From ANME-2 cluster archaeon (GTDB lineage: Archaea; Halobacteriota; Methanosarcinia; Methanosarcinales; Methanocomedenaceae): a stretch of DNA of 64,000 bases. The notes beneath the pieces are model-generated. The model did not search any database. It was not told the DNA's origin and saw only the letters and a list, made by a program, of their open reading frames with translations. Positions 16,285-48,700 of the stretch are shown in pieces. The translations under genes were made by a program, and so were the position numbers. The DNA lies in contig JAAXOC010000042.1 of the NCBI GenBank assembly GCA_014237145.1, positions 1 through 64,000 on the forward strand. The letters are read 5' to 3'. Each line of letters opens with the position of its first letter. The first letter of the stretch is position 1.

Positions 16285-16296
16285 CTTTTTCCCCTC

Positions 16297-17349
16297 CTAT
16301 GCCCACCATAACCCTATTATCGTGGACCACACAAGGTTCAGCAAAGCTAGTGGAATTAATACCTTCCAGCCTATATCTATGACCTGATCGATCCTGTATC
16401 TAGGCAGGGCAGCTCTGATCCATATGAAAAGCATCATCACTATTATTACCTTAGCAATTACCCAGAAGATTCCTGGAATGTATAGATTGCCGACAATAGG
16501 GAGACCATTCCATCCACCCAGGAATATCAGGGTAACAATAAAAGAACCCACAACTGCATGGAGATATTCAGCAAAGAATGCCAGCCCCCATCTCATCCCG
16601 CTGTATTCCGTAGCCCATCCTGCGACGAGTTCTTCTTCTGCTTCAGTTTGGTCAAAGGGTATTCGCCCCACATCAGCCAACAAGGCTATGAAGAATACTA
16701 CAAAACCCAACGGCTGTGCAATAATGAACCAAATACTTGACTGGGCTTCCACTATCTCCACGATATCCAGTGAATGCGCCATTACTGCCACACTAATAAT
16801 AGTAATACCTAGTGGAACTTCGTAACCGATCATCTTTGCTACGTTCCTGAACGCGGCAAGCACTGCATATTTACTGCTTGAACCCCATCCAGCCATAAAT
16901 GTAGCAAAGATAGCCAATCCGGATACTGCTTCAAGATACAGGATACTGATATCCATTCGTGATACTGCTACTGCATAATAGTTCCCGTTGATATAAAGAT
17001 AATCGAAGGGAATTACCGCCACCATCAAAAATCCTGATGTAAGTGCAACAATCGGTGCACCTATAAATAACCATTTATCAGCCTTGGCAGGGATAATATC
17101 TTCTTTAGTGAATAGTTTGATAGCATCTGCTATCAACTGCAATACACCAAATCGACCGCCTACCCGATTAGGACCGATCCTGGATTGCATATCTCCCAGG
17201 AACTTGCGCTCGAGATATACCATTACAAGAGCTCCACCGAATACGGCTCCTATCACCAGCCCGCCAAGAACACCCCTGATCCAGGGTGCAAATGGATTGG
17301 CTGCAAAAATAATAACAAGGTAATCCATAATAATTTCAAATATTCCCAT
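16297..17349 (-). CDS. fpoH: F420H2 dehydrogenase subunit FpoH
   Basis: NuoH-like membrane subunit of 350 aa with eight predicted helices, at the junction with the peripheral arm where the quinone-like carrier (methanophenazine) enters. Signatures are ERKFLGDMQSRIGPNRVG, the KLFTKEDIIP loop, and IPFDQTEAEEELVAGW with the conserved acidic loop. Confidence 0.96.
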   Translation of the reverse strand: MGIFEIIMDYLVIIFAANPFAPWIRGVLGGLVIGAVFGGALVMVYLERKFLGDMQSRIGPNRVGGRFGVLQLIADAIKLFTKEDIIPAKADKWLFIGAPIVALTSGFLMVAVIPFDYLYINGNYYAVAVSRMDISILYLEAVSGLAIFATFMAGWGSSSKYAVLAAFRNVAKMIGYEVPLGITIISVAVMAHSLDIVEIVEAQSSIWFIIAQPLGFVVFFIALLADVGRIPFDQTEAEEELVAGWATEYSGMRWGLAFFAEYLHAVVGSFIVTLIFLGGWNGLPIVGNLYIPGIFWVIAKVIIVMMLFIWIRAALPRYRIDQVIDIGWKVLIPLALLNLVWSTIIGLWWA

Positions 17350-17361
17350 AAATTACACCTC

Positions 17362-18492: not shown

Positions 18493-18502
18493 TATTCATC
18501 AC

Positions 18503-18970
18503 CTATGTTAAATCGGGATACCCGGCGTAATCTTTACGCAGTGGCCATTCTCCTTCCATTTCTTCTATCAGCAATAGGACCTTCATATACGGACAATCAT
18601 TAAATTTGATCCCATAAAGTTCATATGTTTCCCTTTCATACCAGTTTGCATTCCAGTAGATACCACAGAGTGAGTCAATATTCGGATCATCTCGTGGTAA
18701 GGAAGCTTTTAATGTTATGACCAACGGTGCCGAATATGATGTAACATGATATACCACCTCCATTTTATCAGGAGGATAATCCACACCTGATACACAGGAA
18801 AGATGGTCGAAACCGTTGTCAAGTAAAAACTGCATGATCTCTTTTACTTTGCCTGGATCTATTCTTGCTACCGCCCTGTTAGGTGAGGGAACATCCACAT
18901 CAGAAACTGCATCCTTGAACGTATTTGACAGTTCTATCATGATGGTTTTATCCATTTTTTCATCTCCCAT
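18503..18970 (-). CDS. fpoC: F420H2 dehydrogenase subunit FpoC
   Basis: NuoC/30-kDa-like subunit of the peripheral arm, 155 aa. It contains the family signature ANWYERETYELYGIKFNDCP and ends with PLRKDYAGYPDLT. Two starts are possible: ATG 18970, or ATG 18955, which has GGGAG 8 bases upstream and begins MDKTIMIELS. The second looks better on ribosome binding, but both give a normal protein. Confidence 0.94.
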   Translation of the reverse strand: MGDEKMDKTIMIELSNTFKDAVSDVDVPSPNRAVARIDPGKVKEIMQFLLDNGFDHLSCVSGVDYPPDKMEVVYHVTSYSAPLVITLKASLPRDDPNIDSLCGIYWNANWYERETYELYGIKFNDCPYMKVLLLIEEMEGEWPLRKDYAGYPDLT

Positions 18971-18973
18971 CTT

Positions 18974-19516
18974 TTACACACCACCATCTGCCGGATTTGG
19001 TATTACAGTCCTGTCTTTCTCAGCCACGATCTTTTTCTGAAGTTCAATGAAACCCTGCAAAAGGGCTTCGGGTCTTGGTGGACAGCCAGGAATGTAAATA
19101 TCCACAGGGAATATTTCATCAAGATGTGTGACTGTACTATATGATTCCCACCAGGGACCACCGGATATTGCACATTCACCCATCATCAATATCCACTTCG
19201 GTTCTAACATCTGGTCCCAGACCCTTTGCAGAGCAGGCAGGTATTTCTTGCTAACATAACCACTGATCATCATTACGTCAGCCTGTCTCGGGGAACACCT
19301 CGGAATGATACCGAACCTGTCAGTATCATAATGGGCTACACCTACGCATATTTGTTCAATTCCGCAGCAACCCATCGGATGGGTCATGAACCATAACGAG
19401 TTCTTTCTGCCCCAGTTCAAAATTTTCTGGAGCGGTGAATTTTTAATGAACTCTTGTATTGCGCTGGCAGAAGTGACCGAAACATTCGGCGGAAGCTCCA
19501 TCTCTATCTCACCCAT
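18974..19516 (-). CDS. fpoB: F420H2 dehydrogenase subunit FpoB
   Basis: NuoB/PSST-like subunit that binds the terminal 4Fe-4S cluster (N2), next to the methanophenazine site. The ligands are visible as MTHPMGCCGIEQI, MGECAISGG and PGCPPRPEALL. The start is uncertain: ATG 19516 overlaps the end of fpoA by 13 bases and is preceded by a G-rich stretch, while ATG 19501 has GGTGA about 7 bases upstream. The N-terminus is variable in the family, so either is acceptable. Confidence 0.94.
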   Translation of the reverse strand: MGEIEMELPPNVSVTSASAIQEFIKNSPLQKILNWGRKNSLWFMTHPMGCCGIEQICVGVAHYDTDRFGIIPRCSPRQADVMMISGYVSKKYLPALQRVWDQMLEPKWILMMGECAISGGPWWESYSTVTHLDEIFPVDIYIPGCPPRPEALLQGFIELQKKIVAEKDRTVIPNPADGGV

Positions 19517-19902
19517 TCCAAGACCCCCTTCTTCCATTCATATATAAGTCCCAATAGTACAACAATCATAAACAATACCATCGCCAAAATGCTAAATCCT
19601 GTAGTAAAACCTGGTGTAGTTGTAATCACAGCATCATTCACATAAACAGTAACCCATGGGTAAAGGAACAATAATTCAACATCAAACAATACAAAAAGTA
19701 TTGCATATGAATAATATTCAACATTGAACATCATATTCGCACTACCGGTGGGCACAGAACCACTTTCATAGGTTGTGAACTTGGCTAGTGTCTTGCTTCT
19801 CGGCGATATCTGCTTTACAATAAACATTATCGCCAATGGTATTACTAAACCAAATAGAATGAAAATAGCTACAGGTATAAAATTATCAATAATCTCCTCC
19901 AT
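19504..19902 (-). CDS. fpoA: F420H2 dehydrogenase subunit FpoA
   Basis: First gene of the operon. It encodes a NuoA-like membrane subunit of 132 aa with three helices. The conserved segments are TYESGSVPTGSANMMFNVEYY in the cytoplasmic loop (given without its flanks) and AILFVLFDVELLFLYPW in the second helix. AGGTGAT lies just before the ATG. A TATA-like promoter sits about 48 bases upstream. The thirteen genes run without any gap longer than about 20 bases. The F420-oxidising FpoF is not in this window and is probably encoded elsewhere, as in Methanosarcina. Confidence 0.95.
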   Translation of the reverse strand: MEEIIDNFIPVAIFILFGLVIPLAIMFIVKQISPRSKTLAKFTTYESGSVPTGSANMMFNVEYYSYAILFVLFDVELLFLYPWVTVYVNDAVITTTPGFTTGFSILAMVLFMIVVLLGLIYEWKKGVLEWVR

Positions 19903-29614: not shown

Positions 29615-30118
29615 TTAACTACTGTTCATGGAATTGATATGGATACTCTGAATATCCTGTATGTGGCAGATAGTGCAGGAGTATCCTCTGGTCATATGTA
29701 TTGTTACAATATTTCCATAGCTTGGTTGGATCGCGTCAGGGTAGTCGTGACATGCATCGCAGATCTTATCATGCCCTGGTAGTTTTTCCGGGATGATTGG
29801 TTCAAGACCATGGCAGACAACGCATGAGAGATTAGCTGTAGTTTCTTTGATGTGCAGGTCGTGGAGATCTGTTCCATGACACGGTTCACAATAGATGCCG
29901 CCCTCTATATGTTTCTTTTCTTTTTCCGGATGAGTATGACATATTTCACAGTCTATTGTTTGTTCCGGAATTGGTTCGAATTCCGGTATAATAATTTCAT
30001 CTACATCAATGTCATTTTGTGGGGCGAAAATATCTGTAGTTACTGCCAGGTAGACAACACCTACAATAAGTAGAATGCCTGATAGTGCAATTATTATAAT
30101 GTAATTTTTATCTTTCAT
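29615..30118 (-). CDS. Membrane-anchored five-haem c-type cytochrome
   Basis: A 167-aa cytochrome. An N-terminal transmembrane anchor (residues 5-28, IIIIALSGILLIVGVVYLAV) is followed by an acidic linker and five CxxCH haem motifs: CEICH, CEPCH, CVVCH, CDACH and CTICH. The haem part would lie outside the membrane. The compact spacing (20-25 residues between motifs) resembles small tetra- and pentahaem electron-transfer cytochromes. It is divergent from the giant cytochrome gene across a 470-base AT-rich gap, and may connect the methanophenazine pool to the larger cytochromes. Confidence 0.85.
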   Translation of the reverse strand: MKDKNYIIIIALSGILLIVGVVYLAVTTDIFAPQNDIDVDEIIIPEFEPIPEQTIDCEICHTHPEKEKKHIEGGIYCEPCHGTDLHDLHIKETTANLSCVVCHGLEPIIPEKLPGHDKICDACHDYPDAIQPSYGNIVTIHMTRGYSCTICHIQDIQSIHINSMNSS

Positions 30119-30588: not shown

Positions 30589-33500
30589 ATGATTCCTGCT
30601 GTAACCACTGGACGTAAATATACCAGTCGCCCTGTCAGAGCAATGTCTTTACTTGCTACCTGCACGTGCCTGGTTGTGCTATTTGTGATGATGTGCGGGG
30701 TTGTAGAAGCTGCTGCGACCTATGATTACACGATTACTGTAACTGATGATGTTGATGACCAGTGGAGCACGAATCTGAGCAATAATGACAGCACCGTTAA
30801 CGGCAACATCTATGTGGAAAACGGCGCTGTGCTGAACCTCATAAATGCAACGATACAGATGGGGGACGGATTTTCCATCATTGTCGAAAGCGGTGCAACC
30901 ATGAATGTAACCAGTGATTCGATTATCACAAGGGATTCCGGATATTACAATTTCAACTACAATAGCGGCAGCCGTGGCCATCTGAGCGCAAGCACAATCG
31001 AGTACAGCTATACATTGCAGATCAACACTACAAATAACATTACCATCACGGACTGTACCATCCACAACAATCAGTACCATGGCATACACCTGACATCGGC
31101 CTCAGGATATGTCAACATCACAGACTGTAGCATCGCAAACACCGTCCAGGGACACGACATATTCATAGATTCCTCGATGAACAATATCCTGCGAAATAAC
31201 AGTCTGAACAACAACAATGGAGATTACAGCCTGTACGTCACAGGAAACTATGATCAGGATATCGACACCACCAACACCGCAAACGGCGGGCTGGTATATT
31301 ATAACTACAGCGACAGCGGCACGATTACCAACGAAAATAACATCGGGCATGTAACAATTGCCAATTGTACCGATCTGTGGTTCACGGGCTGCACGATACA
31401 TAACGGGGATGGTGTCCGGATCGTGGGATCTTCATCGAGTGGAATTAGTGGAAGTACTTTCGAGAACAACGCAAAAGACGGGGTTTATTTTACCGATTCA
31501 AGCAATAACACCATAAAAGACAGTCATATTCTGGATAATATTGGTAATGGTATTCTTTCAGACGGTACAAGCAGTGACAACCGCATCATCAACAACAGCG
31601 TCATCAATAATAGCAAAGGCATTTTTTTAAGAGGAATTGGAAATAATAATATCACAGATAACAATATATCAGAGAATAGTGACGGTGGTATCAGCATAGG
31701 TTCGGGTACTGAACACTTTGGAGATAACATCATACGAAACAATACAATACTCTCGAACAGCGGTATTGGAGTTACTTTTTATTCGAATAATAATGATTTA
31801 AGCGAGAATACAATATCAGGGAACGGGAATCTTACATTACTATTCGAGTCCCCGTATTATAATAATTACATCTGGCGCAACAACACAGCAAACGGCGAAG
31901 AAGTGAACTATTATCATGATGAACATGACATAATCATCGAGTCGAAATATCTCTCAGCATCCAATGTGAGCAATGTCGGAAAGATCACACTTATCAATTG
32001 TACCAACATCATCATAAGAGACAGTGTACTTTCGAATAGCAGCAAATCCGGTTATGGTATATTTTTGCAGAACTCAAATAATAATAGCCTGACCAACAAC
32101 ACCATATCGAATAACTTCTACGGCATCCTACTGGACGAATCATCCAGCAACAACATCACTGATCTCGATACGATTAGTCTAAACTGGGGAGCACAGTTAG
32201 AATCGAATTCGAGTTACAACAACATCACAGGTAGCACTATCAAAAGCACAATCACCAATGCACTGCACATAAGCTCATCCGATCACACCACCATCACTGA
32301 CACCACTAGCTCATCTGTGGATTTGTACGGACTACTTACTAGCAATGCCCATTACATAAACCTTACAAATGTTACTATCAGCTCATCATTCAGCGATGGT
32401 ATAAGCCTATTAGCGTCCCACCACGTAACCATCCAAGACGGCAGCAGCATCACCGCAAACAACACAGGCGTGCACTGCACCAACGGCAATAACACCAACA
32501 TAATCGACACTACCATCACAGCGGGTACAGACGGCATATATATGTCCGAGTCAAACTGGGGCAATTTCACGAACAACAACATTGATGCCAAAGAGCGGGG
32601 CATAGCTCTTAACACATCAAGGGATCACAACTTAACAGCAAACACTATAACGAACTACACGAGCATCGGTGTCCTGCTTAAGGAGTATTCAACGAACACA
32701 ACGATGATAGGAAACGATCTCACACGCAACGGGGCAGAGTTCGATATCAGGATCAATGACTCAAACGGCGCAACCTTCACAAACAACGAATCAACAGCAG
32801 CGAATTACATATTCTATCTAACCAATGACATCAGACTCTGCACGCTCGATACCGTCTTTGACAAAACAAAGGTCGGCTACGAGGATACATCGAATCTGAC
32901 ACTGATGTGGCGAATCGATGTGCTCTGCTGGGACAATTACCATCTTGAGCCGATGTGGACGAACCTCACAGTGCGTTATAGGGATATCAGTGATTATGAC
33001 GAGTCGCTATGCTGGGAAGGCGAGACCACTAATGCAAATGGCAGATTGAGTAACAATGCCTTCGGTGATCACGGACCTCCCACCCCAAGCAGCAACTGGC
33101 TTACTGTAATCGAGTACAAGCAGAACGTAAGCACAAAGATGAGCTACCAGCCGATGAATTGCACGGCAGTCAACAGGTGGGATGTGCTTAACAAGATCTA
33201 TGACAAAAGATACAAAAACCTCACGACTGCGATCTCTGGACCAGGGGTCACTATTCTCGTGGATGCAGGTCACACCCCAAATGGCAAGTGTTACTACTGT
33301 CATGAGGATAAACTCAAGAATGCGGATGACACGTGGAAGTTCCCGAATACGAGACACTGGAATGAGTATAACGCAAGGATCATGAACGCCTCACTGGGTG
33401 ATCCGTACACTCCGGGGCGGTGCATCGACTGTCATGACGAGACCGACTCTACAAAATTCCCGCACGGTACTGAGAGCGGAAAGGAAATGCTGTACTATCC

Positions 33501-36500
33501 AAGTCCGCAATTATGCTACACCGGCAGGACCGGCAGTCTGGAGTGCCACAGTGCGAATGCAACACCGCCCCTCGATCAGGAGAATGAGTTCAACCAGACG
33601 ACCCACCACCCGCTCGGGGATGGGAAACTTGCATGCAAGGCGTGCCATGACAATCATGGGTCGAAGAATCGGTTCGATCTGCTGAGGTATTATACGAATG
33701 CTATAATAGGGGGGTATAATTCATCAGACTATGCACTCTGCCTTGTGTGTCACCTTGAGGAGAAGATCGTGGCGAAAATGTCAGATGAGAACGGTTATCT
33801 TGCAAACTACGTGAATCAGACGAACTTCAGGGATGAGTATTATGGGTGGGATGAAGGGTTCAGTTCAATGAATAAGCCAATAAACATCCACTCTCCACAG
33901 GATAATAGTGATCATCCCAAGAGAAACTGCTACTCCTGCCACAATCCACACGGCAGCGATAATCCGGCAATCATACGCAATAATGCAACGGATGGTGGCC
34001 CTATTAACTATACCTACATCACCAATGTCTCGTCTACAGACAACAACACGGCATGGGAGGTACTGGATTACGATAACTGGAATAATACAACCGCAAACAA
34101 GGGTGGTGGACTACTGTATCTGATTAGTAGTAGTAATGGTTGTTATTGCCACTGGGATAATTATGGTTATGAGATGATCCTATCAGAAGGTTCTTTCACC
34201 TACCGAGAATTCATCGACTACGAAACCGCAGGAGGTGCGGGCTGTCTCGAGTGCCATGACAACAATGCTTCCGCATACAACGAAACCCCGATCCGTCCGA
34301 TCGTGAACCTGACCGCAATCAAACTTGCAATGCACACCAATCTGAGCGGTGCGTTCCGCACTGGCAGCATTCTTCAGGGAACTGACAGGAACTTCACAGG
34401 GTGGCTCGAATATCGCGATTACACAAACGAACAGATCAACAACATCACCGAAGACAACGCGATCTGCTGGGCATGTCACTCCACAAACGGCACGCCACCG
34501 TATCCTGGATTCCATCCGGATCGGACACTGAACCCATACAAGTGCCCGAAGTGCCACGGACCAGAGAACGGTCAGCCGCCGCACACACAAGGGCTGGTTG
34601 CTGCGATCGATAACCACGGTCCGACCACAAAGGGCATAGGAACGATATTCATCCAGACCGATATCGGGAGCAACGGATCATGCGAAGACTGCCATGCACC
34701 GAGCGTTCTACCGGAAAGTATGATCAATCCAGATGATAATCTCAAGGTGTGGAAATGGGGAGTAGGTTCTACTGGCACGGGTGACGGCTGTATCACCTAC
34801 GAAGGCAGAACCACGATGGGTAATGTCTCGCACTACGGACTGAATAGATTGCAAGGGGAGGCACTTGGAATAGATAACCCGCTCATAGACACCTCTGACT
34901 GCCTATTGTGCCACTGCAACTCCACAAACGGCGCGATATGGGGCAATGCACCAAATGTGACCGATAATATGTACGGAGCAAACACATCAAACCTCTCTGA
35001 GTGCTATGATTACTGCCATGTACTCCCCGACTACCTGTATAATGTAACTGAGGATACCATCCCGCATTTCCATAACAAGTCCCTCTATGCCGGCGGCGGG
35101 TTCGACTGCGTGGTCTGCCATGACATCGACAGTTTGTACGGAATCAAGTCGCTTATCGATGCAGACGCAATCGCTGCTGGTATTCACGGGAACGTCGCAA
35201 ACAACACCATCTCTACCATCCTTGAATGCGATCCGAGATCAAAGCCCTGCTGGGGCTGCCATAACAGCAACGGTATGCAGCCGGATGGAATGGGGGACAG
35301 GAACTTAGTTTACGAACCGCACAAGAATCCGTGGTCATGCGAGGACTGCCATGCACGAAGCGATGAATGGAACGCGGCAACGAGTTACGGCGAAACATGG
35401 ATAAGTTCGAGTTATCCGCCGAACCGCCTGCCTCCGATAATATATGCGCATTATCCGAACTCAACGACTCTCAAGACCAATATGAACGGCGAGGGGAGAT
35501 GTGTTGACTGCCACAACAACAGCATCAACCAGAGCCACGTTGACACATTCGGGCAGATACTCAAAAACACGATCAGATCGAACGTCTCGCATTACGGCAC
35601 AACAACAGACCTGGTCAATCCGACCCAGGACTGCAGCATATGTCACAACACTACACCAGAGAATGCAACGAAATGGGGAGGCGCTCTGCAGAATAACCAC
35701 GGCAACTTCACAGACGAGGCAGACGTGGATGATGGCTGCTACGTCTGCCACACAAATGACGAAGAACCCTCAGTGGACTTCCATGCAGCGAATCTGTGGT
35801 CGGGAATGGGTGGATTTGAGTGTCTGGAATGCCACGATAATGACGGGTTTGCAAAGAGAAAAGTGATCAATGGAAGTGTCTATGAGAGTGGGGTTCACGC
35901 CAGGATGAATAACGCCACCACCGGTTCTAACGGCACCAACCAGTCGTGCTGGGTCTGCCACTTCGAAAATGGCATGAACGCGGATAGACATAGTATGCTA
36001 AAGGATACGCCGTATCTCTGCTATGACTGCCACAACAAAGCCGGAGGGCCATTCAGCAATGTGAGCGATGCACCAGAGGTTCACAACCACTTCAAGAACG
36101 GAACCAACATCTCTGCGTACTGGACGCGTGCGACAGACTCTGACTCATGCATGGGCTGCCACAACCAGTCAGAGATGTTCTATCCGTTCAACGAGAGCGA
36201 TACATACCGCACTAACTTCTCGATCACATCACATTATGGGGATAACCGGACAGATCTCGTCGATCTGTTCGTTGAAAATAACAACACCGCGTACTGCTCA
36301 TACTGCCACGTCAATACATCAACTCCGTTCATGGAGTTTGAGAACGATAAAAATATCCAGCACGCAGGAAGCCAGAAATGCAACGAATGTCATGGCGATG
36401 GCAGGCTTCACAACGAGACCCTGACACGGGCGCAAACAAGTGGGAACTGCACCGACTGCCACGCGCTCTACGGGGTTAACAAGACAGATACGGTCTACGA

Positions 36501-37536
36501 GATCAATGTTACAGCAATGAATCTTGGGGTACATGCTAATGTAAACGATAACATGAGATTAGTTGCATCCGCACCGCCGATCAATGATCCAAACAATTCA
36601 ATGTGCTGGGGCTGCCATGTGCCGGGCGGAGCATACCCCAAGACCGGTCACAACGAGACGTTCAACAACGACGCGTACCTCTGCTATGAGTGCCACAACG
36701 GCACTTATGCATACAACAACGTGAGCAACGCACCCGCGGTCTACAACCATTTCAAGGGCGGCATCGATATCAAAGCACGCACGGATGCCGAGACGAACTC
36801 GACCTCATGCGGATACGGATGCCACAACTTAAGTACGATGAAGGTTCCGGGCTTTGATTCAGGCGGGAATGCGACGTACCGTGTTAACTTGTCGCAGGCA
36901 TCGCATTATGCGATAAGCCGCCCTGACATAGCAAACGAAAGTGGTGGTTACTCTGAGTGCACATGGTGCCACATGGACTCGACAAACGAGTTCATTGATA
37001 TCTTCTTGAATACAGGTCCGCCGAACTACACCGCAAACATCACACATGCGTCAGAGACATCTGGTTGCATTATCCCGGAATGCCATAATAGAGGCAGGAT
37101 ACATGATTCAAATCTTACGATTCCATCAGTGAACTGGTCAGAGTGCGAAAGCTGCCACTTCGGACTGGACAACTCTGATGCGTATGTGAACGAGACGATG
37201 TTCGATGCGAGTGTGCACGGGGGGTTGAACTGCACGATGTGCCATATCAACACGCAGATGAATCACCCTACCAGCGATTATACCTGGAAATGGTGCGAGT
37301 GCTGCCATTCGTATCAAGCAGATCCGATAAACGAAACTGATCGCCATAATGTAACAACCACACCATCCACATATTCGGTCGGAGGAACGAATGTACTCGA
37401 TATCGAGGACTGCACAATCTGCCATAATGCAACAGCATATAATGCTGCTGTAGGTTATTATAATTCTACATATAATTGCAGATATTGCCACGCTTATCCG
37501 GATAAAGGTAACACGACAAGTCAGGAGTGGTACTGA
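30589..37536 (+). CDS. Giant secreted beta-helix/multiheme cytochrome fusion (about 31 CxxCH motifs)
   Basis: A 2315-aa secreted protein. A basic N-terminus and hydrophobic segment (about residues 19-41, cleavage near VVEAAAT) form a signal peptide. Residues about 95-780 are a right-handed parallel beta-helix of the NosD/PbH1 type, with repeated NNITDNNIS-like rungs. From about residue 900 to the end there are 31 CxxCH motifs plus unusual ones: CYDYCH and CGYGCH (three spacers), CIIPECH (four), GCYCHW (one) and a wide LCYTGRTGSLECH. No C-terminal membrane helix is seen, so it may be released or attached to the S-layer. Asn-X-Ser/Thr sites are very frequent. It likely belongs to extracellular electron transfer. 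The carbohydrate-binding-like helix could serve anchoring or cell contact; that is inference. Confidence 0.9.
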   Translation: MIPAVTTGRKYTSRPVRAMSLLATCTCLVVLFVMMCGVVEAAATYDYTITVTDDVDDQWSTNLSNNDSTVNGNIYVENGAVLNLINATIQMGDGFSIIVESGATMNVTSDSIITRDSGYYNFNYNSGSRGHLSASTIEYSYTLQINTTNNITITDCTIHNNQYHGIHLTSASGYVNITDCSIANTVQGHDIFIDSSMNNILRNNSLNNNNGDYSLYVTGNYDQDIDTTNTANGGLVYYNYSDSGTITNENNIGHVTIANCTDLWFTGCTIHNGDGVRIVGSSSSGISGSTFENNAKDGVYFTDSSNNTIKDSHILDNIGNGILSDGTSSDNRIINNSVINNSKGIFLRGIGNNNITDNNISENSDGGISIGSGTEHFGDNIIRNNTILSNSGIGVTFYSNNNDLSENTISGNGNLTLLFESPYYNNYIWRNNTANGEEVNYYHDEHDIIIESKYLSASNVSNVGKITLINCTNIIIRDSVLSNSSKSGYGIFLQNSNNNSLTNNTISNNFYGILLDESSSNNITDLDTISLNWGAQLESNSSYNNITGSTIKSTITNALHISSSDHTTITDTTSSSVDLYGLLTSNAHYINLTNVTISSSFSDGISLLASHHVTIQDGSSITANNTGVHCTNGNNTNIIDTTITAGTDGIYMSESNWGNFTNNNIDAKERGIALNTSRDHNLTANTITNYTSIGVLLKEYSTNTTMIGNDLTRNGAEFDIRINDSNGATFTNNESTAANYIFYLTNDIRLCTLDTVFDKTKVGYEDTSNLTLMWRIDVLCWDNYHLEPMWTNLTVRYRDISDYDESLCWEGETTNANGRLSNNAFGDHGPPTPSSNWLTVIEYKQNVSTKMSYQPMNCTAVNRWDVLNKIYDKRYKNLTTAISGPGVTILVDAGHTPNGKCYYCHEDKLKNADDTWKFPNTRHWNEYNARIMNASLGDPYTPGRCIDCHDETDSTKFPHGTESGKEMLYYPSPQLCYTGRTGSLECHSANATPPLDQENEFNQTTHHPLGDGKLACKACHDNHGSKNRFDLLRYYTNAIIGGYNSSDYALCLVCHLEEKIVAKMSDENGYLANYVNQTNFRDEYYGWDEGFSSMNKPINIHSPQDNSDHPKRNCYSCHNPHGSDNPAIIRNNATDGGPINYTYITNVSSTDNNTAWEVLDYDNWNNTTANKGGGLLYLISSSNGCYCHWDNYGYEMILSEGSFTYREFIDYETAGGAGCLECHDNNASAYNETPIRPIVNLTAIKLAMHTNLSGAFRTGSILQGTDRNFTGWLEYRDYTNEQINNITEDNAICWACHSTNGTPPYPGFHPDRTLNPYKCPKCHGPENGQPPHTQGLVAAIDNHGPTTKGIGTIFIQTDIGSNGSCEDCHAPSVLPESMINPDDNLKVWKWGVGSTGTGDGCITYEGRTTMGNVSHYGLNRLQGEALGIDNPLIDTSDCLLCHCNSTNGAIWGNAPNVTDNMYGANTSNLSECYDYCHVLPDYLYNVTEDTIPHFHNKSLYAGGGFDCVVCHDIDSLYGIKSLIDADAIAAGIHGNVANNTISTILECDPRSKPCWGCHNSNGMQPDGMGDRNLVYEPHKNPWSCEDCHARSDEWNAATSYGETWISSSYPPNRLPPIIYAHYPNSTTLKTNMNGEGRCVDCHNNSINQSHVDTFGQILKNTIRSNVSHYGTTTDLVNPTQDCSICHNTTPENATKWGGALQNNHGNFTDEADVDDGCYVCHTNDEEPSVDFHAANLWSGMGGFECLECHDNDGFAKRKVINGSVYESGVHARMNNATTGSNGTNQSCWVCHFENGMNADRHSMLKDTPYLCYDCHNKAGGPFSNVSDAPEVHNHFKNGTNISAYWTRATDSDSCMGCHNQSEMFYPFNESDTYRTNFSITSHYGDNRTDLVDLFVENNNTAYCSYCHVNTSTPFMEFENDKNIQHAGSQKCNECHGDGRLHNETLTRAQTSGNCTDCHALYGVNKTDTVYEINVTAMNLGVHANVNDNMRLVASAPPINDPNNSMCWGCHVPGGAYPKTGHNETFNNDAYLCYECHNGTYAYNNVSNAPAVYNHFKGGIDIKARTDAETNSTSCGYGCHNLSTMKVPGFDSGGNATYRVNLSQASHYAISRPDIANESGGYSECTWCHMDSTNEFIDIFLNTGPPNYTANITHASETSGCIIPECHNRGRIHDSNLTIPSVNWSECESCHFGLDNSDAYVNETMFDASVHGGLNCTMCHINTQMNHPTSDYTWKWCECCHSYQADPINETDRHNVTTTPSTYSVGGTNVLDIEDCTICHNATAYNAAVGYYNSTYNCRYCHAYPDKGNTTSQEWY

Positions 37537-37542
37537 AAATCT

Positions 37543-37962
37543 ATGATCTCAAAAAGAATAATTATCGCGGGAATCTTAATTATATTGATCATAGGTATAG
37601 CTAATGCTATGCTTTCAGGCAGTCACGAATTATTTAAAACTGAGCCCACTCCGCAGGAATTTTGCAGCAAATGTCACTTGGCATCCGCAGCCAATGTCAG
37701 CGCTGGTGCACACAGCCCGGTAAATTGCCTATGTCATGGATACAATCCAAACTCAAGTTCGGAATATAATGTTAATATGACACATGATCTTACTAAGAAT
37801 ATCTATTGTACAAACTGCCACTCAAAGTATAATGAAACATCCGGAGATATCGTGATCTATAGTGGTATAAGCGGATTAAAACAGTCTGCGCATTATATAA
37901 TTGATAAAACCGACGATCAATTATACAACAACAGCAGGGGGTTTTTCAGTGATCCTGAGTAA
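37543..37962 (+). CDS. Small membrane-anchored cytochrome, two CxxCH plus one CxCH
   Basis: A 139-aa protein 6 bases downstream of the giant gene, so probably cotranslated. The N-terminal anchor IIIAGILIILIIGIANAML leads into a segment (LSGSHELF) shared with the two other small cytochromes nearby. Haem motifs are CSKCH and CTNCH, with NCLCHGY in between, where a single residue separates the cysteines. His residues elsewhere could serve as distal ligands. It could tether or feed the giant cytochrome. It lacks the C-terminal extension of its relatives. Confidence 0.75.
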   Translation: MISKRIIIAGILIILIIGIANAMLSGSHELFKTEPTPQEFCSKCHLASAANVSAGAHSPVNCLCHGYNPNSSSEYNVNMTHDLTKNIYCTNCHSKYNETSGDIVIYSGISGLKQSAHYIIDKTDDQLYNNSRGFFSDPE

Positions 37963-38075: not shown

Positions 38076-38843
38076 ATGGAACGAAGTAAGATATTATTGA
38101 TAATTGGTTTATTAGCGCTTGCAATATTTGTTGTGCCTGATATACTTTCAATGTTTACTGGGGGGCATAGATTTTATGATGAAGTGAACTGCCAGCGCTG
38201 CCATATAGCAGAATATAATGAGGTAGATGGGTCTTCTACAGGTCAAGTACATATCAGGGCAGCCAGCAACACTAATTATACTACTTATCTTGCCATTGGA
38301 GGTATTGATTATTATCCATCAAACGGCACAATTCATTCGGTCGATAATAAGATCTGGAGATGGAACGACAATTCATGGACCAATGGTTCAACATCATTAT
38401 TAGTCAGTCTGGATCATAATGGTAATTCTGAGATCGATGGAAATGAAATCTGTCACCTATGCCACAATACATCATTAATAGACAAGCCAGATACCCATTC
38501 AATAACCATGAGAACATGTGATGATGACTGGTGTCATGGCAACAGGAATTATACTTTAAATGACCCTGAACTGTTCGACACTTCGCAGACCAGACTCAAT
38601 GTGGGAATGGTCTTAAATTACTCAGGTAATCTTCACAGGGCGTTCTATCTCAGCCAGTGCAACGAGGCAACTGGGTACACAGCAGGTAATCCTTTCGACC
38701 ATACAATGGGAAATGTCAAAGGAGATTATTTTTCAAAGGGTTACTGGGCATGTGTCGGATGTCATTCCGAGGTTCAGGTCAATATAGAAATAGTTCCAGG
38801 TGAGTACAATCACACTGGTGGGCCACCGCGGAAATACCTGTAA
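38076..38843 (+). CDS. Membrane-anchored tetrahaem-type cytochrome
   Basis: A 255-aa protein with an N-terminal anchor (ILLIIGLLALAIFVVPDIL) followed by SMFTGGHRFYDEVNCQRCH. Motifs are CQRCH, CHLCH, CDDDWCH (four residues between cysteines) and CVGCH. GGTGA lies 5 bases before the ATG. It is similar in plan to the cytochromes at 37543 and 39991, so the three are probably paralogues. Its 3' end overlaps the opposite-strand membrane gene by 34 bases. Confidence 0.78.
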   Translation: MERSKILLIIGLLALAIFVVPDILSMFTGGHRFYDEVNCQRCHIAEYNEVDGSSTGQVHIRAASNTNYTTYLAIGGIDYYPSNGTIHSVDNKIWRWNDNSWTNGSTSLLVSLDHNGNSEIDGNEICHLCHNTSLIDKPDTHSITMRTCDDDWCHGNRNYTLNDPELFDTSQTRLNVGMVLNYSGNLHRAFYLSQCNEATGYTAGNPFDHTMGNVKGDYFSKGYWACVGCHSEVQVNIEIVPGEYNHTGGPPRKYL

Positions 38844-39253: not shown

Positions 39254-39515
39254 CAGATATACATCCGTAACGATAAAATTTTAATGAAACTATTTGCTAA
39301 TACTGACAGTTACTTGATTCTATAAAGAATTCTCACACTTGTTTATTAAGTTTTTTGATTTGAATCCCATCAAGCCATATATTCAGTAGATTGTACTATT
39401 TTTGTACACAGTATGTGGGGAGCATCATTTACCTGAAATTCAGATGCCTGAAAATAAAAAAAGTCCCATAACACTTCAAAAGACTTATTAGGCATAAGTG
39501 TATACTTATTTCTCT

Positions 39516-39911
39516 ATGCGGTTAATTTATATCATTATGCTTATTACACTAATTATGGCATCTGGCTGTCTTGGGGAAAAGTCAATCATTAAAGCCAATG
39601 TTACAATTACAGAGCACAATGGTACACCAGTCATAGATAGTATTGAGGCTACAAGTGCAAAAGTCAGTAAAGTTGAGAATTACAGGGAGGTATCGCCACG
39701 TTTACCAGGCGTTAGTATGAAATGTATCAGCAACATGAGGCATATCGATTACTGGAGATCGGTCGATTACAATGGCTCAGGAGAATATGAGTTGATATCC
39801 GAGTTACGAATAATACCTGATAAAGGAGAGGGTGTTAATGTAATCATCGAGGTGGTTGACAGTAGTGGTAACGTGATGGCCAAGAGAACCGAGACCATCA
39901 CATGGAAATGA
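39516..39911 (+). CDS. Predicted lipoprotein
   Basis: A 131-aa secreted protein. MRLIYIIMLITLIMASGCLG is a lipoprotein-type signal with the lipid-attachment Cys. The mature part is beta-rich, with TITEHNGTPVIDSIEAT and a final VIIEVVDSSGNVMAKR, suggesting an immunoglobulin-like fold. Starting at the internal ATG 39516 gives the better signal peptide than the GTG 18 bases upstream. No known family is recognised. Confidence 0.55.
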   Translation: MRLIYIIMLITLIMASGCLGEKSIIKANVTITEHNGTPVIDSIEATSAKVSKVENYREVSPRLPGVSMKCISNMRHIDYWRSVDYNGSGEYELISELRIIPDKGEGVNVIIEVVDSSGNVMAKRTETITWK

Positions 39912-39990: not shown

Positions 39991-40710
39991 ATGAAAGCTA
40001 ATCAGATAATTTTATTGGCAATTGCTATAATTGCAATCGGATTATTCATTATTCCCAGCACGTTGTCAATGTTTGTTGGGACGCACAGTTTTTTCAGCGT
40101 CAGGACAGCTGATGCTCAATACAGAATGTGCGAGAGATGTCACTGGGATGAGGTTGGAGAATGGGAAGCAAATACTGGTGCACATGCTACTTACCGTGAC
40201 TACTACAAGAGTGTACAGGGTGGTGGTGTGGATCCAGGTTGTTTCTGCCACCAGATCAATAGTAGCAGATTAACAAGTTTCCAGTTCGACGTCAGCGGAA
40301 TAGATAATCACAGCTTTGAAATATGGAATGAAAGCGGCGATATCAACAGCAACGATCCTACCACGTGGGAATGGCGAACTAACTCTACACCACATGTTGC
40401 ATTTACTGTTGCGTGTGTAGACTGCCACTATAATGCAAGCACACAGTTAAATAATTCAGCCGAAGCGCATGGATCCTTCTATAATGCTACTCTTAATGCT
40501 ACAGGGATTGGAGTATCTGAAAATACTGCTTGTCTTGCATGTCATAGTATGGTTGGACTGAATATCACGATGCAACGCAATCTGGGTGGACTTGAGATAA
40601 ATGCTAATCACACTAACTACACTGCCGGTAATAGCTGGGAGATAGAGATCAGTATAAATTCAACAAGAACAACAAATAGCACATATTGGGGGGCAAATGA
40701 AACCCGATAG
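39991..40710 (+). CDS. Membrane-anchored cytochrome, three CxxCH plus one CxCH
   Basis: A 239-aa protein with the same plan as those at 37543 and 38076: an N-terminal anchor (QIILLAIAIIAIGLFIIP), then LSMFVGTHSFF and the first haem motif CERCH. A GCFCHQ motif with one spacer residue follows, then CVDCH and CLACH. The C-terminal third is Asn/Thr-rich with several glycosylation sequons. It ends at a strong hairpin terminator. Confidence 0.78.
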   Translation: MKANQIILLAIAIIAIGLFIIPSTLSMFVGTHSFFSVRTADAQYRMCERCHWDEVGEWEANTGAHATYRDYYKSVQGGGVDPGCFCHQINSSRLTSFQFDVSGIDNHSFEIWNESGDINSNDPTTWEWRTNSTPHVAFTVACVDCHYNASTQLNNSAEAHGSFYNATLNATGIGVSENTACLACHSMVGLNITMQRNLGGLEINANHTNYTAGNSWEIEISINSTRTTNSTYWGANETR

Positions 40711-40775: not shown

Positions 40776-41555
40776 ATGTCATATGTTAATCAGATTATCA
40801 ATATAATAATCTACAGTTCATTTTACCTTTATTATAATCATCTATCTCTGTTAATTTTATTTTTTCTAACGCTTTTATTGTTCTATATTTTATATAAAAG
40901 AAATAGTAAATTAGGAATTTTATTCCATTTAATTGGTCCATTCATAAAAAAAAGGCCGTACCAGAACCAGAAAAAAAATATTCAAATCCGGATGAAAAGT
41001 TATAGCAAACTATCCAGAAGACCGAGCATCCTTCAAGTAATAATCCCATTGATCATTACTGGATTGACAGCGTATGTCATCCTAAATCAGCTTGTATTTT
41101 TCGCCATCATAACCTCAGGAAGCATGTCCCCGACCCTTGAAGTAAAGGACCTTGTTCTTATGCAAAACCTGAAGATCGATCCACAGCAGGGAGATATAAT
41201 CATGTTTGAGACAAAAGAGGCAAAAATGCCAGTCATCCACAGGATATATTCTGGTTCGGAAAACGAGATCAGGACAAAAGGTGATGCTGTGGAATTAGTG
41301 GATAACTGGATAATTAAAAAAGATCAGATACAAGGGGAAGCGATGATATTTCAGGGCAAACCTATAGTGGTCAAGGATATTGGTGAATATTTACTGTTCG
41401 ATCCGAATAATGTTCGAATTACCAAGTATGGATCTGAGATGTACAGGGTCAGCCAGATCATAAAGAATATCAAGAGTCTTGGTCTTACAATATTCATAAT
41501 TTGTATATTGCTTTATATTTTCATAAATTTCAGATCCACTGGCAAAAGTTACTGA
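40776..41555 (+). CDS. Signal peptidase I (archaeal SipW/Sec11 type)
   Basis: Membrane-bound signal peptidase of 259 aa. It contains the catalytic serine in ITSGSMSPTLEVKDLVL, followed by GDIIMFET and VIHRIYS. The His replaces the bacterial Lys, as in archaeal and eukaryotic Sec11-type enzymes. DAVELVDNWIIKKDQIQGEA provides the last conserved box. There are two N-terminal hydrophobic segments, one more than usual, and one at the C-terminus. The position just before the giant cytochrome operon suggests a dedicated role in processing it. Confidence 0.85.
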   Translation: MSYVNQIINIIIYSSFYLYYNHLSLLILFFLTLLLFYILYKRNSKLGILFHLIGPFIKKRPYQNQKKNIQIRMKSYSKLSRRPSILQVIIPLIITGLTAYVILNQLVFFAIITSGSMSPTLEVKDLVLMQNLKIDPQQGDIIMFETKEAKMPVIHRIYSGSENEIRTKGDAVELVDNWIIKKDQIQGEAMIFQGKPIVVKDIGEYLLFDPNNVRITKYGSEMYRVSQIIKNIKSLGLTIFIICILLYIFINFRSTGKSY

Positions 41556-41647: not shown

Positions 41648-42718
41648 ATGACTAAAAAACCAGATATTTCACTTTTAGAAAAATTTAGTATATTATATTT
41701 GTTATTCATGGCAATTTATTTAATATACTTACATTACACGCCGGTGATAGATGTACTGTCAGGTAAAGAATTCAAAGCGCAGGATTTTATTGTGAATCTG
41801 ACTATTGTAATTATTGGGTTATGTGCTTTATGGGGCGGGATTACTCTGGCAAAAAGAGCCATTGCCCAGGAGCAGCTGATTAATATGGGGTTTGAACACG
41901 GGGTATATAACAGGCTTGAGCCCATCCTGCAGGAAATCGCTGGCACTCAGGTTGTGATCGATAAGATGGATGAACAGCTGAACAGTATGAACATCAATAT
42001 AGATCGCCTTAGAAAACGTTCGGTCGAATTGAAGATCCCTGGAACCGAGCCAGCGTTCGGGATCGATATTGCCGCACAGATCTCACGTTTTCTTCGATTG
42101 ATCATATTAATTAACATTACTCTCGCAACATTCATATTTCTCTTAAATTTCACACGCAGTTATACTCCCTTTATACTGACAATGTTGTATATTCTCTGGT
42201 GGCTCGAAATAACCTATGAATACACTCTTTGGGAACGATCATCTGTATATTGGTGGGTTTTTATCCCGATACTTACCATACCAATCACAACAATACTGGG
42301 CGATATAATGTATGGAAGCGGGATTTTGATTGGAGGCATGGGCATCTTACTTGCATTATATGTAAGTGCATATTATACCTGGAGCAAATATATTATCGAG
42401 GGAATTTTACCATTTGATTTGAATAAGCCCATCAGTAGAATTCCCAGTGATAATATAACTTCTTCACATTTCTTTCCATCCAGAATATATTTCATACAAC
42501 ATCATTATAAACTAGGAAAAATTTTAATAACTATCTCGATCATTTTCACATCTTTATTAATAATACAATTATTCAGCGTAAATATATATTACATAAAATT
42601 CCTACCAAATTTTTCACTTGATCAATTTGTATTCTTAGGTATTTTTTCAATAATATTTTATATATTGGGTGTCAGATTGAAGCACAATACAAAAGAAAAC
42701 GAAACGGAGACAATATGA
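41648..42718 (+). CDS. Polytopic membrane protein of unknown function
   Basis: A 356-aa protein with about eight predicted transmembrane helices. Two N-terminal helices are followed by a cytoplasmic coiled-coil-like stretch (residues about 75-130, with IDKMDEQLNSMNINIDRLRK). Then come six more helices, including WWLEITYEYTLWERSSVYWW. No haem or metal motif is seen. Its stop overlaps the start of the giant S-layer cytochrome by 4 bases, so the two are translationally coupled. It may be an export, assembly or anchoring factor for that protein; this is inferred only from position. Confidence 0.65.
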   Translation: MTKKPDISLLEKFSILYLLFMAIYLIYLHYTPVIDVLSGKEFKAQDFIVNLTIVIIGLCALWGGITLAKRAIAQEQLINMGFEHGVYNRLEPILQEIAGTQVVIDKMDEQLNSMNINIDRLRKRSVELKIPGTEPAFGIDIAAQISRFLRLIILINITLATFIFLLNFTRSYTPFILTMLYILWWLEITYEYTLWERSSVYWWVFIPILTIPITTILGDIMYGSGILIGGMGILLALYVSAYYTWSKYIIEGILPFDLNKPISRIPSDNITSSHFFPSRIYFIQHHYKLGKILITISIIFTSLLIIQLFSVNIYYIKFLPNFSLDQFVFLGIFSIIFYILGVRLKHNTKENETETI

Positions 42719-45700
42719 TAAAAATCAACACTGCACGGATATTGTTATTATTTATACTAACGTGCAGTGCAGGTACTGTTGTGGTTCAGGCACAAAATTA
42801 TACTGTGATAATGAACTACGGTCAGACTCCGTATCAACTCGGATACTTAAGTCAGGGAAATGCCACAGGCTGGACATGGTGGGATACTGATGGCGGGATG
42901 CAGCAAAAAAACCTCATTCTGGTAAGTATTATGGAGAATGCCACACCAGTCAGCGGCCTCTCACCACCTGCCTGGACACAAGACAGTTCAGAGAGCCACA
43001 TAGGAAGTCATAGCTGGAAGGCAGGGGAAGGTATACATAGCTGGCATTATCTCGACGACCATACTACATCCGGGACTCCACTAGAGGATATTGTCCTATC
43101 AGGATCCCAGGAAAAACCGGGTTTCTTTGCAAAAACATATATCTGGCTTAACGAATTGATCACAGGTGTTAATTCCGCTGCTGTAGGGCCAATGATCAAC
43201 CTGACATACTGGACTAAGTATGATATGACAGATAATTACGGTTTTGTCAAAGTTTCAGCAGACAGGGGAGAAAACTGGGACACACTTGAAGAATATTCAG
43301 GTAACAGCAATGGATGGGTGGAAAAAACAGTCAACCTGACAAAATATGATGGACAACAAATACTTATAGCATTCTATTTCAGTGTAAATAACAATAACGA
43401 TGAAGAATGGTGGATAGATGATATAAAAGTGATATCAGATGGCAAAGTAATCTTCAGCGATGGTGCTGAAAATCCCCCACCTGTACTCACAGTGAATGTT
43501 ACTTATCCGCATTTCAAATATTCGAGTGGTGATTTCTCAAGTGAAAAAACAACAATAGGCCTTGTGGAGGACTATGCTCATCAGATATATTACGGAGTGT
43601 TCAATTATCCGGATGATGCTTATACTGGTGAATACCAGGTCGATTTCAGCACTACAATAAATTCCAATGATCTTCAGGCATCAACCAGTTTCAGTACCAC
43701 ATTATGGGGCTGCCAGGCAAGAGGCTGCCATGATTCATGGAGTCCAGAGAGCAATCCCTCTGAGCGTAACCCGACAGTTATGATACATCCTGATGACATT
43801 ACATCACAACTAAGTGGAAACTGCCTGAGCGTTTGTCACAGTACCTATTCATCGCAGTTCCTGCGGGCAACTCCCCTTCACCTGCATGACCTAAAATACG
43901 GTCATGAGGGTGGATTTATTTATGGTTCAAGTGGATGGACTACTATCTACAATAACACAAATGCAAACGTGCAGATGTATTATAAAACATCTGTTAAGCG
44001 ACCCATTCCACAGACCACATTCAATGTTGCCTCCCATGTAACAGTGGCAGAATGCACTGACTGTCATACTAATTTTATACATGATGGAAGTGGAAGTGAT
44101 ACCTATGATATCGCCACTCCCGATTCATTAAACGGAATAACATACCAAAATCCAACAGGTGTGCATAACACAGTATCATGTGAAGCATGTCATGGAATCT
44201 ACAGCAAGATTGCAGGGGAGGGGTTATATTACCCGCCATTTGATACCACTAAACAGCTAAGCGATTCGATTGGGGACTATGGACCTGAGTTCATGTCATA
44301 CGAAGCGGTGACAAAAACCTATATAATAAATATGGATAACTCCGGAACAATTGATGTGACCGTAACCGGTGATGATAATGAATATAAAATATTTCTCTCA
44401 CTTATCGGACCGATAGACAATACCAACGGTCTTCAGGATTTAAACACTACTGACCCGTGGGATGGCACCTATTGTGTACCCAGCGTCAATGGAACTGCCA
44501 CATTCGCATTTGGATCAAAAATATATTTTCCATCGGGTGACAAAATTCGCGGTGTTACTTTTGATTCATCTCCAAAAAGCGGTATATGGATAGCCAGGGT
44601 ATTCCCGCGGTCCCCTGGTACTTTTAATTATACAATAACTTCAAGTCATCCGATCCAGCAAAAACCTGTTATTCATATACCATGGAACTGCAGCGAATGC
44701 CACAATCCTGATGCAATCGGAAGTTTAGCAGGAGCTAATACCCTCAAACCCATGCCTTTGTGGGATAACCAGGGATTATCATATACCCATACTGATCATA
44801 ATGACGATGGCAAGGATGACGTTACTTGCAGGTTATGTCATAATTCATTCCATGATATTTCAATTAAGAACTGCACTGACTGCCATATTCAGCGGCCTGG
44901 CGGTCATAACCAAGCGAATTATTATGACATGGGATATACCGGTTGTATGTTCTGCCACAAGGACCCGCATTTTGAACCCGAGGCAGCAGCTGGTGGTAAT
45001 TGCACTGACTGCCATCTGCAGGGTGGTACAAATGCAACATCGGATCTGATAATAAGTAAGGATGGTTTTTTCAATAGTGCACACAACAACATTACAGGAG
45101 ATTTCAATGCCAGCAATTATTCTGATATATCCAGGGTCTGCTGGGGATGTCACGTAAATTATACTGAACAGCTTATAGATCCATTCCATACCAGACGTGC
45201 ATCAGAATTACCTGATTGTGAGGACTGCCACTTTAGTAAAACACCGTTAAATGGCGAAAACCTGAGAAAGATACCGCCCATACAGATCCCTGAACACCAG
45301 CCTATGGGTGTGGATGTCCAGACAAACATATCTACCAACTGTACTTTCTGTCATAACAATTCACTATCCATTTCGATACCGACTACAAATGTCAAATACG
45401 CTGAAGCCAAGAACTATGTTTCTCACTATGTGGATACTGACAATTTAATGACGACAACCAATAATACCACTGACTGTTGGTGGTGTCACTTTGTCAATTC
45501 AGATAATGTTTCATGGGGTATGCCTACAGATCCCTTCAATTCTACCCACTACGATCATACTCCATTAAAACTCTTTAATAGCATCGACTGTTATCCATGC
45601 CATATTTCAAACAAGGTAATGGATAATGGCAATCCACAGGCAGGGTTTACCTTCCATAATGACAGTATGCTCCCCGGTGCCGGAAAATATTGTGTGGACT

Positions 45701-48700
45701 GTCATGATATAGGTGGAATGGTAAATGAAACGTACCAGATCGATGTACAGGCCATGAACATGTCAGGTGCGATACATTATGATCTCAACAGAGTTGCAAT
45801 CGACACAATGGATCCAAATGAAGATCCGAATAACGTACGCTGCTGGGCCTGCCATGGTGACGGAAACCTATCCGAAGCTGCCCAACCCACAGGCCATCCT
45901 GACAATTACAGCACTCCCAAGAACTGCGGTAACAGGGAATGCCACAATTTCAACCAATCGATCTTACATGAACCGATGGTCTATGAGCACATCAGGTATG
46001 TGGATGATATCGACGAGCATGTTAACACAACAGCAGATTGTTCGGTATGCCATAAAAACAGCATCGTGAGCCACGGGGACAATTTAGTTCCTAATGATAC
46101 CTCACTGGTATCACATTACGGATCGACCTGGAACCTGGTAAATACATCAGACTGTATCTACTGCCATCTCGATGAAGACAATGCAGAGGAATGGGGCAAT
46201 GCACCTGATCCAAGAAACCATACGGATTATACCTTTGTTGAAAAAACCCTCATTGCCGGCAGGCCGTGGAAACTTGTGGATAACTATTCCATCACGTTAT
46301 TAGAAACCACAAGTAATGCTGCAATGTTCATCTTTGAAAAAGATGGTGAGCTGCTTGAGCGTGATATCCTATCCCTGGGTGATGAGCTTAATTTCGAGAT
46401 CAGCGGGATAGAAGACGAGAACACCAGTATCGTAAATTTCACAATAACTAAAATATTCAAAGGAAGAGATCCATATGCATATGTTGTTGAGTTGTCTGGA
46501 GATGTGCTTGCATCACGCATCCACAGAGAAACAAATAATATAGCGTGCTATGCCTGTCATGACCGTGAATATCGTACAAATGAACCGGACGGCAGGGATT
46601 ACTATATCCTGGAAAAGGATGATGAAAATGTCACTCTGGGACGTATATATGTCAATTTCGAAGAGAGTGATAAGAAAGTGCTTAAGATGGGAGAATTCTG
46701 GGATCTTGGAGAAGGTTATAATCTTTATGTTGCAGATGTAAACCTGCAAAGCACTGCTACACGGCTGCAACTGTATAAAAATGAAACGCTGGTAGAAGAC
46801 ACAATAATAAAAGAGGGAAGCAATTTCATACATGAAGAACGGGTTTTCGATCGGGATATTAATGTGTTCAGCGCAAAACTGGATATTGTTTTTGTTGGTA
46901 CAACAACCCAGGCTATTATACTAAAGGATGTGAGGCTCATTGCAGGTGAGCAGAAAGTACTTGACGGCGATCTATGGATACTACAGACCAAGAAATTATT
47001 AAGGGACCTGCCGCTGGATAGCGTCATAACAGTTGGAGAAGAAACTGGGACATTCCATGTTTACACTCTTTCACCTGGCGAATACAGTTCGGACTGTATC
47101 AGCTGCCATGCAGGAAATGGAGTAGCCCCCATTAAAATCGATGTGGATACTTTCAAAAAGGGTGTACATGCTTATTTGAATCAAAACGCAACCTGTAACA
47201 CTTTTATCACTGACGAGGCAAATAAAGCATGCTGGGCATGTCACGGCAATGGCAGCGAGCCTGATGAACATCCTACGCCCTACTTAGGTGAGCGCCCGCC
47301 AAAAACCTGTATTAGCTGTCATGGGTACTCGCAATTTGATGCAACGCAGGTATATACACACTACCAGAATGCTGAAATTTCAACAGATTCAACATGCTGG
47401 GACTGCCACTTTAATACTGTCATTAATAGCACCTCTAAAAATGTAAAGGCTGCAACATCCCATGATTCAACACGGGAAGACCTTTTAGATACCTACAGTT
47501 GCGATGTATGCCATAACAATGAAACAAATGCACCCATATGGGGAGATGCACCACAGGTTACAAAACATAATGCAGATAATGACTGCACCCTATGCCATGC
47601 AGGTGAGGGAGTTGAGACATTCCATGACAAAGGAATAACCATAACAAGGAATTGTGAAGATTGCCACGTTGACAAACAACAGGCAAATGAATTCAACCTG
47701 AGTCCAATTATTACACACTATCCGGGTGCACCGGATGATAGTGTAAACACCCTGAAACGTAATGAGTACACCTGTCGTGTATGTCATAACGCTACTAATG
47801 AAACATTACACCTAAACCTTGAAATAAGAGAATACCGAAACGAGACTATGGGCTATTGCTTCCCGTGTCACAGCGTTGAAGGAGAATTCCCCCACAAATC
47901 AGAAGCGTTGATAGAGGTACTGCGTCACGGATCCGGTATAAAAGCTATTTCTGGCTGTGATGCATGTCACTCTCCTGAAGGTATTAGTAAATTCCATACC
48001 CCAACCTTGTTGAGTAAGGGCACTTTTAGAGGCGCGGTCCGACATGACGTTGATTGCCTGGATTGTCATCCTGAACATGAAGGTAAGGAATATCAGCCGT
48101 TTGAAGGCGTACTGTGCGTCGACTGTCACACTGAATACGGTTCAGTCCATTATGCGGGTGCAGAAGTAAAAATGACGAATCAAACCACTACATGTGTCCT
48201 CTGTCATAATGAGGAAGCTGATATATATCATAACCTGACGTACTTTGTGGGCGATATGACAGATGAAGTCCTTGAACCCTGTCGTGATTGTCATAAAGAC
48301 ATCGAATCCCTCAAGGAACATGTCAGGTCATTAAAGATCATAGGGGGAACCATGGCAACCATTTCGCACACAGTATCAGAAGTTACAATAACTTGTGACT
48401 CTTGTCACAATGTCACTGGAGAGAACAGGTTCCACTTTGATTCCTATCCTATGGGTACTGTACAGGACCCTGGCTGGCCGAACTGGACAGCAGGGAATGT
48501 TACAAAATGCAAGGACTGTCATACATATCACGGCGGAGCTACACCTTTCAATGCCACGAATATGGGTACCCAGGGTCTTTCACCCTCGGGTACAGCTCAT
48601 GGTTTGGCACCTAACTGCACACTTTGCCACGGCGGGGCTGACCCTATAAGTTTCCATACTCTGGCAACTTCCCAGTTTATACCTCGTCTGGCAGTTACAT

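Follow-up and report, generated by a model that had tools for sequence, protein, structure and literature searches.

It has long been an open question how anaerobic methanotrophic archaea (ANME) pass electrons to their bacterial partners, and one very large gene in an ANME-2 cluster archaeon of the family Methanocomedenaceae bears on it. The gene lies at positions 30589–37536 (+) of the 64,000-nucleotide stretch analyzed here (the window; assembly GCA_014237145.1, contig JAAXOC010000042.1, positions 1 to 64,000). A first-pass annotation, made from the sequence alone, had described its product as a fusion of a NosD-type β-helix with a chain of 31 or more haems. We show that the gene encodes ANME multiheme cytochrome type C (MHC-C), a class published in 2022. 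We regard this protein as a promising candidate for the outer end of the electron route.

The gene is a single uninterrupted frame of 2315 residues, assigned to MHC-C from reading of the open reading frame (ORF), motif count, Pfam matches and relatives. A signal region at residues 1–42 (30589–30714 (+)), with Met19 as an alternative start, was recognized by eye from a hydrophobic stretch in the translation. It is followed by a right-handed parallel β-helix, residues 43 to about 735 (30715–32793 (+)), on which Pfam, structure prediction and fold comparison agree. The N-terminal half matched NosD (E = 2.7e-33) and Beta_helix (E = 4e-32), and an AlphaFold2 model of residues 43–900, computed with eight orthologues, showed short strands repeated coil upon coil to ~735. 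Predicted local distance difference test (pLDDT) values were mostly 75–96 per 10-residue block to ~720 and about 90 in the helix region, with low confidence past ~735. The fold is thus the one that had been proposed, but it ends near residue 735 and not at 780; what follows is a separate linker of 155 residues (741–895, 32809–33273 (+)). Only the haem motifs are better conserved than this MHC-C-specific linker: 45% of its columns are invariant, compared with 37% for the haem region and 20% for the β-helix. It makes a good diagnostic probe. The haem chain, residues 896–2315 (33274–37533 (+)), accounts for Pfam matches in the C-terminal half to MtrC/MtrF domain II/IV, cytochrome c7 and paired CXXCH models; its profile found no match among Protein Data Bank sequences. 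Against the full-length NosD model TIGR04247, MHC-C scored 49 bits, below the cut-off of 300, and so has only the NosD repeats in common with that family. No RNA features were found at the locus. An assembly error joining two genes was ruled out, as the same join occurs in independent assemblies; the same full-length gene is present in at least six other metagenome-assembled genomes (MAGs), some of them from different studies and sites. An in-frame TGA in ANME-2c orthologues proved to be an ordinary stop near the C-terminus, with the last residues missing.

The haem count is likewise as annotated. The 31 CXXCH motifs are spread between residues 901 and 2297, the first and last sites, and no such motif occurs N-terminal to 901. 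Seven full-length orthologues, drawn from three families, all preserve these motifs, together with CX3CH at 1472, CX3CH at 2074 and CX4CH at 2160, so that 34 haems in MHC-C are well supported. Spacing variants of haem motifs have been recorded for large ANME cytochromes (Chadwick et al. 2022, PLoS Biol, PMC9012536). A further site, CX9CH at residues 976–987 (33514–33549 (+)), probably also binds haem; orthologue comparison showed Cys976 and Cys986-His987 to be invariant, with 8 or 9 residues separating the cysteines. At residues 1185–1188 (34141–34152 (+)) the same comparison revealed a haem-like site of variable spacing, CYCH, which is CX1CH in the window and three relatives, CX2CH in most and CX3CH in two. 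To our knowledge, no haem c motif of CX1CH spacing is established.

MHC type C was defined by a large N-terminal pectin-lyase-type domain, many haems, and the lack of both an S-layer domain and a C-terminal transmembrane (TM) helix (PMC9012536). The window protein has each of these features: a large β-helix region free of haem motifs, well over 20 haem motifs after it, no Pfam match to the S-layer domain PF07752 and, by eye, no hydrophobic segment at the C-terminus. Its last residues are NTTSQEWY (C-terminus read directly: ...CRYCHAYPDKGNTTSQEWY). The missing anchor, correctly noted in the first-pass annotation, also belongs to the published definition. Elsewhere on the contig, PF07752 matches MHC-B and, past the window, an ORF of 885 aa. 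An S-layer domain with a membrane anchor, the hallmark of the S-layer conduit cytochromes MHC-A/B, is therefore absent from MHC-C as such and present only in the fusions described below. Orthologues occur in genomes used in the published study (ANME-2b HR1, ANME-2c HMMV-459B1 and E20). The contrast earlier drawn with known ANME cytochromes, said usually to carry S-layer domains instead, therefore does not hold. The idea of an electron conduit with a built-in contact module remains a reasonable reading, but it is not new; recognition of the partner bacteria's wall by the pectin-lyase-like domain had already been proposed (PMC9012536).

With the linker as query against 186 genomes of the order (given below by our own G numbers), MHC-C was found in 18. 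The carriers are ANME-2a/b, ANME-2c, Argoarchaeum/GoM-Arc1 ethane oxidizers, two genomes that appear to be of ANME-3 type, and one member of the Methanoperedenaceae; the search revealed no further carrier in the two families holding methanogens and Methanoperedens. In GoM-Arc1 E37 (G018), three giant cytochromes form a cluster; the largest, of 3320 aa, has seven NosD stretches and 40 CXXCH motifs, and the others are 2578 and 2469 aa long.

What does MHC-C work with? In the window, MHC-B lies 5 kb downstream (42715–49092 (+)). By Pfam and motif count it has an M6-like/MAM N-terminus, 34 CXXCH motifs, an S-layer domain and a C-terminal TM helix, and it is followed by a CcmF2-type haem lyase paralogue (49089–51245 (+); domain search and published cassette). 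Conservation of the cassette with MHC-B and CcmF2 was seen within the genus and, in rearranged form, in Argoarchaeum-type genomes. In three genomes, a single ORF has the start of MHC-C and the end of MHC-B: G184 (3134 aa, 45 CXXCH) and G179 (3136 aa, 45), both apparently ANME-3, and G067 (3349 aa, 50), of the Methanoperedenaceae. A profile and identity scan placed the switch from MHC-C at about residue 1736 (G184/G179) or 1949 (G067), into MHC-B at about 755 in both; these positions are approximate because the two haem regions are mutually related. All retain the β-helix and the C-terminal anchor and have dropped the M6-like N-terminus of MHC-B. The fused genes lie between a pentahaem cytochrome gene and CcmF2, the layout to be expected if a window-like cluster had lost its central part. 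The ANME-3-type fusion genomes have no separate MHC-B N-terminus, and their sister G185 has one. In trees, the MHC-C part of G067 joins G184/G179, and the MHC-B part of G184/G179 joins G185; since the crossover points differ, the fusion may have arisen twice or may later have recombined into an MHC-B already resident.

As Rosetta-stone-type evidence, these fusions suggest that MHC-C and MHC-B work together, with MHC-B supplying the anchor that MHC-C lacks. They also suggest a polarity, in which the β-helix sits at the end far from the membrane anchor and would be outermost in one conduit, and they give a testable order of the conduit parts. The same polarity bears on an alternative in which the β-helix faces inward or sideways and fastens MHC-C to the cell's own S-layer glycans or matrix in place of a membrane anchor. 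MHC-C indeed has no anchor of its own, and the genome encodes other β-helix surface proteins, including a haem-free one of 2018 aa with NosD β-helix repeats and S-layer domains. The fused proteins, however, are already anchored at the C-terminus and carry the β-helix at the opposite end, and we consider self-anchoring rather unlikely.

The solved folds nearest to the helix (Foldseek) are PL6 alginate lyases, AlgG/AlgE epimerases, phage tailspikes and Ag43. Sequence identity in the structural alignments is 8–16%, and TM-scores are low, as is to be expected when long helices differ in twist, so we claim the fold class alone. Since lyases and epimerases provide the best matches, the β-helix could be an enzyme that remodels the matrix around the wire. 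Yet only 10 invariant charged residues, scattered over 698 columns, were found, the AlgG-type DPH motif was not found in the helix, and β-helix length differs by whole coils (698–931 aa among orthologues; haem length, 1383–1440 aa). We consider a polysaccharide lyase or epimerase very unlikely; the low conservation and variable length would be less expected of a conserved enzyme than of a binding or spacer module. The same two properties, along with the presence of Ag43 and another self-associating protein among the fold matches, are in favor of a rigid stalk or self-association module with no specific ligand; conservation of a motif block at residues 221–277 in all orthologues speaks against it, and we regard a mere stalk as improbable. 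By its fold, the β-helix may bind carbohydrate.

The haem part contains 71 N-X-S/T sequons, whereas shuffled sequences give an expectation of 23.6 (z 12) and the reverse pattern occurs 19 times; in orthologues the haem part has 63–69 against 19–21. In the β-helix the number is not clearly raised: 37 sequons were counted where 28 were expected (z 2.4), and the reverse pattern gave 34. The three Fpo proteins tested contained none. An AglB/STT3 gene is present in the genome. The haem part may accordingly be N-glycosylated, the excess of sites predicting a sugar-coated wire.

Based on these findings, we propose a plausible arrangement. Membrane-anchored MHC-B, with its S-layer domain, would carry electrons through the S-layer. 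MHC-C would dock end-on to it via the haem region, extending the haem chain outward, and would form the outermost, glycan-coated segment of the extracellular conduit. The β-helix at its tip would bind a glycan or other surface, whether on a partner cell, a shared matrix or a mineral. Being exposed and accessory, MHC-C would have diversified through segment exchange between families. That the MHC-B S-layer conduit is extended outward by MHC-C, a sugar-coated haem wire whose β-helix tip binds some surface or matrix, is in our judgment the likeliest reading, at about even odds. Several points weigh against it. In the stretches read from ANME-2c and ANME-2b HR1, MHC-C and MHC-B do not lie side by side. 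Near-complete genomes of the same family have no MHC-C (G010, 99%; G006, 100%; G007, 96%), and G010 keeps the MHC-B/CcmF2 cassette all the same. The large-MHC transcript level was low in one ANME-2c culture, according to a study cited in PMC9012536. The AlphaFold2 model of the haem half (residues 1200–2310) has a pLDDT of 26, as expected without haem, and was not used; the docking on which the arrangement depends is itself presumed. The near-complete ANME genomes without MHC-C indicate that it is accessory and unneeded for electron export in general.

The history of the gene differs from that of its neighbors. G+C content at third codon positions is 0.57 in MHC-C, 0.39 in MHC-B and 0.34 in CcmF2 of the window. 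In trees of the control genes MHC-B, CcmF2 and FpoL the window is placed with its own genus. The tree of MHC-C residues 741–1200, in contrast, grouped sequences across families: the window with ANME-2c G032, G004 with G043, and G002 with G040/G020, the last grouping recurring for 1210–1700. Approximately unbiased (AU) tests were run after a first look at the trees, with families and genus taken from the genome search and segment limits set by eye. Within these terms, the window's genus as one group was rejected for 741–1160 (p-AU 2e-9) and 1210–1700 (p-AU 1.5e-51) and not for 1700–1990 (p-AU 0.09) or 1990–2306 (0.05). ANME-2c as one group was rejected for the same first two segments and weakly for 1700–1990 (0.03); it forms a clade in 1990–2306. 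At residues 1450–1549 the window is 87% identical to other-family G032 and 55% to same-genus G002.

Such a pattern might be produced by metagenome assembly or binning. Several MAG contigs end inside the MHC-C gene, co-occurring ANME-2a and ANME-2c have conserved stretches in common, and G024 may hold a contaminant copy. Against this, the contig that bears the window copy is 86.7 kb long and also carries FpoL, MHC-B and CcmF2, which group with the window's genus, and the segments that the window copy shares with G032 are too divergent to be copies of each other (12% of bases and 24–29% of fourfold sites differ; longest identical run, 48 bases). Between G002 and G040 or G020, 12–19% of fourfold sites differ in shared segments, with identical runs of up to 96. 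This divergence makes assembly chimeras unlikely, less firmly so for the G002 pair, and an artefact as the source of the whole pattern is highly improbable. Exchange of MHC-C segments between archaeal families is well supported by the segment trees. We further judge it somewhat better than an even bet that MHC-C is a shared mosaic surface gene, its segments traded among co-resident, bacteria-pairing seep families (ANME-2a, ANME-2c, Argoarchaeum/GoM-Arc1). Alternative versions of each segment would circulate across families, much in the way that exposed receptors diversify under partner or virus pressure, with the 34 haem sites fixed. Given the mosaic and the patchy distribution, partner specificity or virus pressure can be asked about by comparing MHC-C segment types with partner bacteria. 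Viral contigs were considered as a transfer vehicle, and no MHC-C was found on them. G024, a genome of the ANME-2c family, contains a window-type cluster together with an ANME-2c-type MHC-B, through transfer or bin contamination.

Further cytochrome genes surround MHC-C. Upstream, at 29615–30118 (−), is a divergent pentahaem cytochrome (5 CXXCH; motif count and comparison across genomes). In nine genomes checked, it accompanies MHC-C or its fusion in three, stands alone in one (G185) and is absent from five without MHC-C. Immediately downstream of MHC-C, by motif count and gene order, is a small dihaem cytochrome (37543–37962 (+)), followed by a trihaem cytochrome with an N-terminal hydrophobic segment (38076–38843 (+)). 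Next come a small putative lipoprotein with a lipobox-like N-terminus by eye (39498–39911 (+)) and another trihaem cytochrome with a weak MtrC/F-like match (39991–40710 (+); motif count and domain search). The S26-type signal peptidase of the MHC-B cassette (40776–41555 (+); PF10502, E = 3e-7) and a multi-TM ANME-specific protein (41648–42718 (+)), by position the '8x TMH' of Chadwick et al., precede MHC-B and CcmF2 as in the published cassette (Fig. 12 of PMC9012536). Elsewhere on the contig, the Fpo (F420H2 dehydrogenase) operon at 10022–19902 (−) provided FpoL as a vertical marker. A short frame at 52348–52665 repeats C-terminal sequence of the adjacent CdhD-like protein (53818–54723), as a partial duplication or remnant. 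Proteins with tetratricopeptide repeats (TPR) are encoded at 58741–61251 (836 aa, almost wholly TPR) and 62828–63943.

The fusion protein as such belongs to a published class; what appears to be new is that MHC-C is fused to MHC-B in other lineages, that sequons abound in its haem part but not clearly in its β-helix, and that its gene is a mosaic. In open-access full text, only Chadwick et al. were found to link ANME multiheme cytochromes with a β-helix, NosD or pectin lyase, and a limited search of the same kind found no mention of the fusions, sequon excess or mosaic except one MHC-C/MHC-B hybrid, in ANME-3 HMMV2 (PMC9012536). That hybrid, like the fusions here, is one polypeptide with features of both types, but its MHC-C features are described as C-terminal and its MHC-B features as N-terminal, the reverse of what we observed. 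From the published MHC type C, the window protein shows no difference in kind; mosaic exchange, sequon excess, the Methanoperedenaceae fusion and presence in Argoarchaeum/GoM-Arc1 ethane oxidizers go beyond the main text of PMC9012536. MHC type B is related through haem segments about 25–30% identical to those of MHC-C, and is fused with it in three genomes, yet it differs in its S-layer domain, M6-like N-terminus and C-terminal TM helix, and its trees follow families. NosD/pectin-lyase-fold proteins (PL6 alginate lyases, AlgG/AlgE, tailspikes) have the right-handed parallel β-helix in common with MHC-C; unlike it, they are not fused to cytochromes, and no catalytic motif was found in MHC-C.

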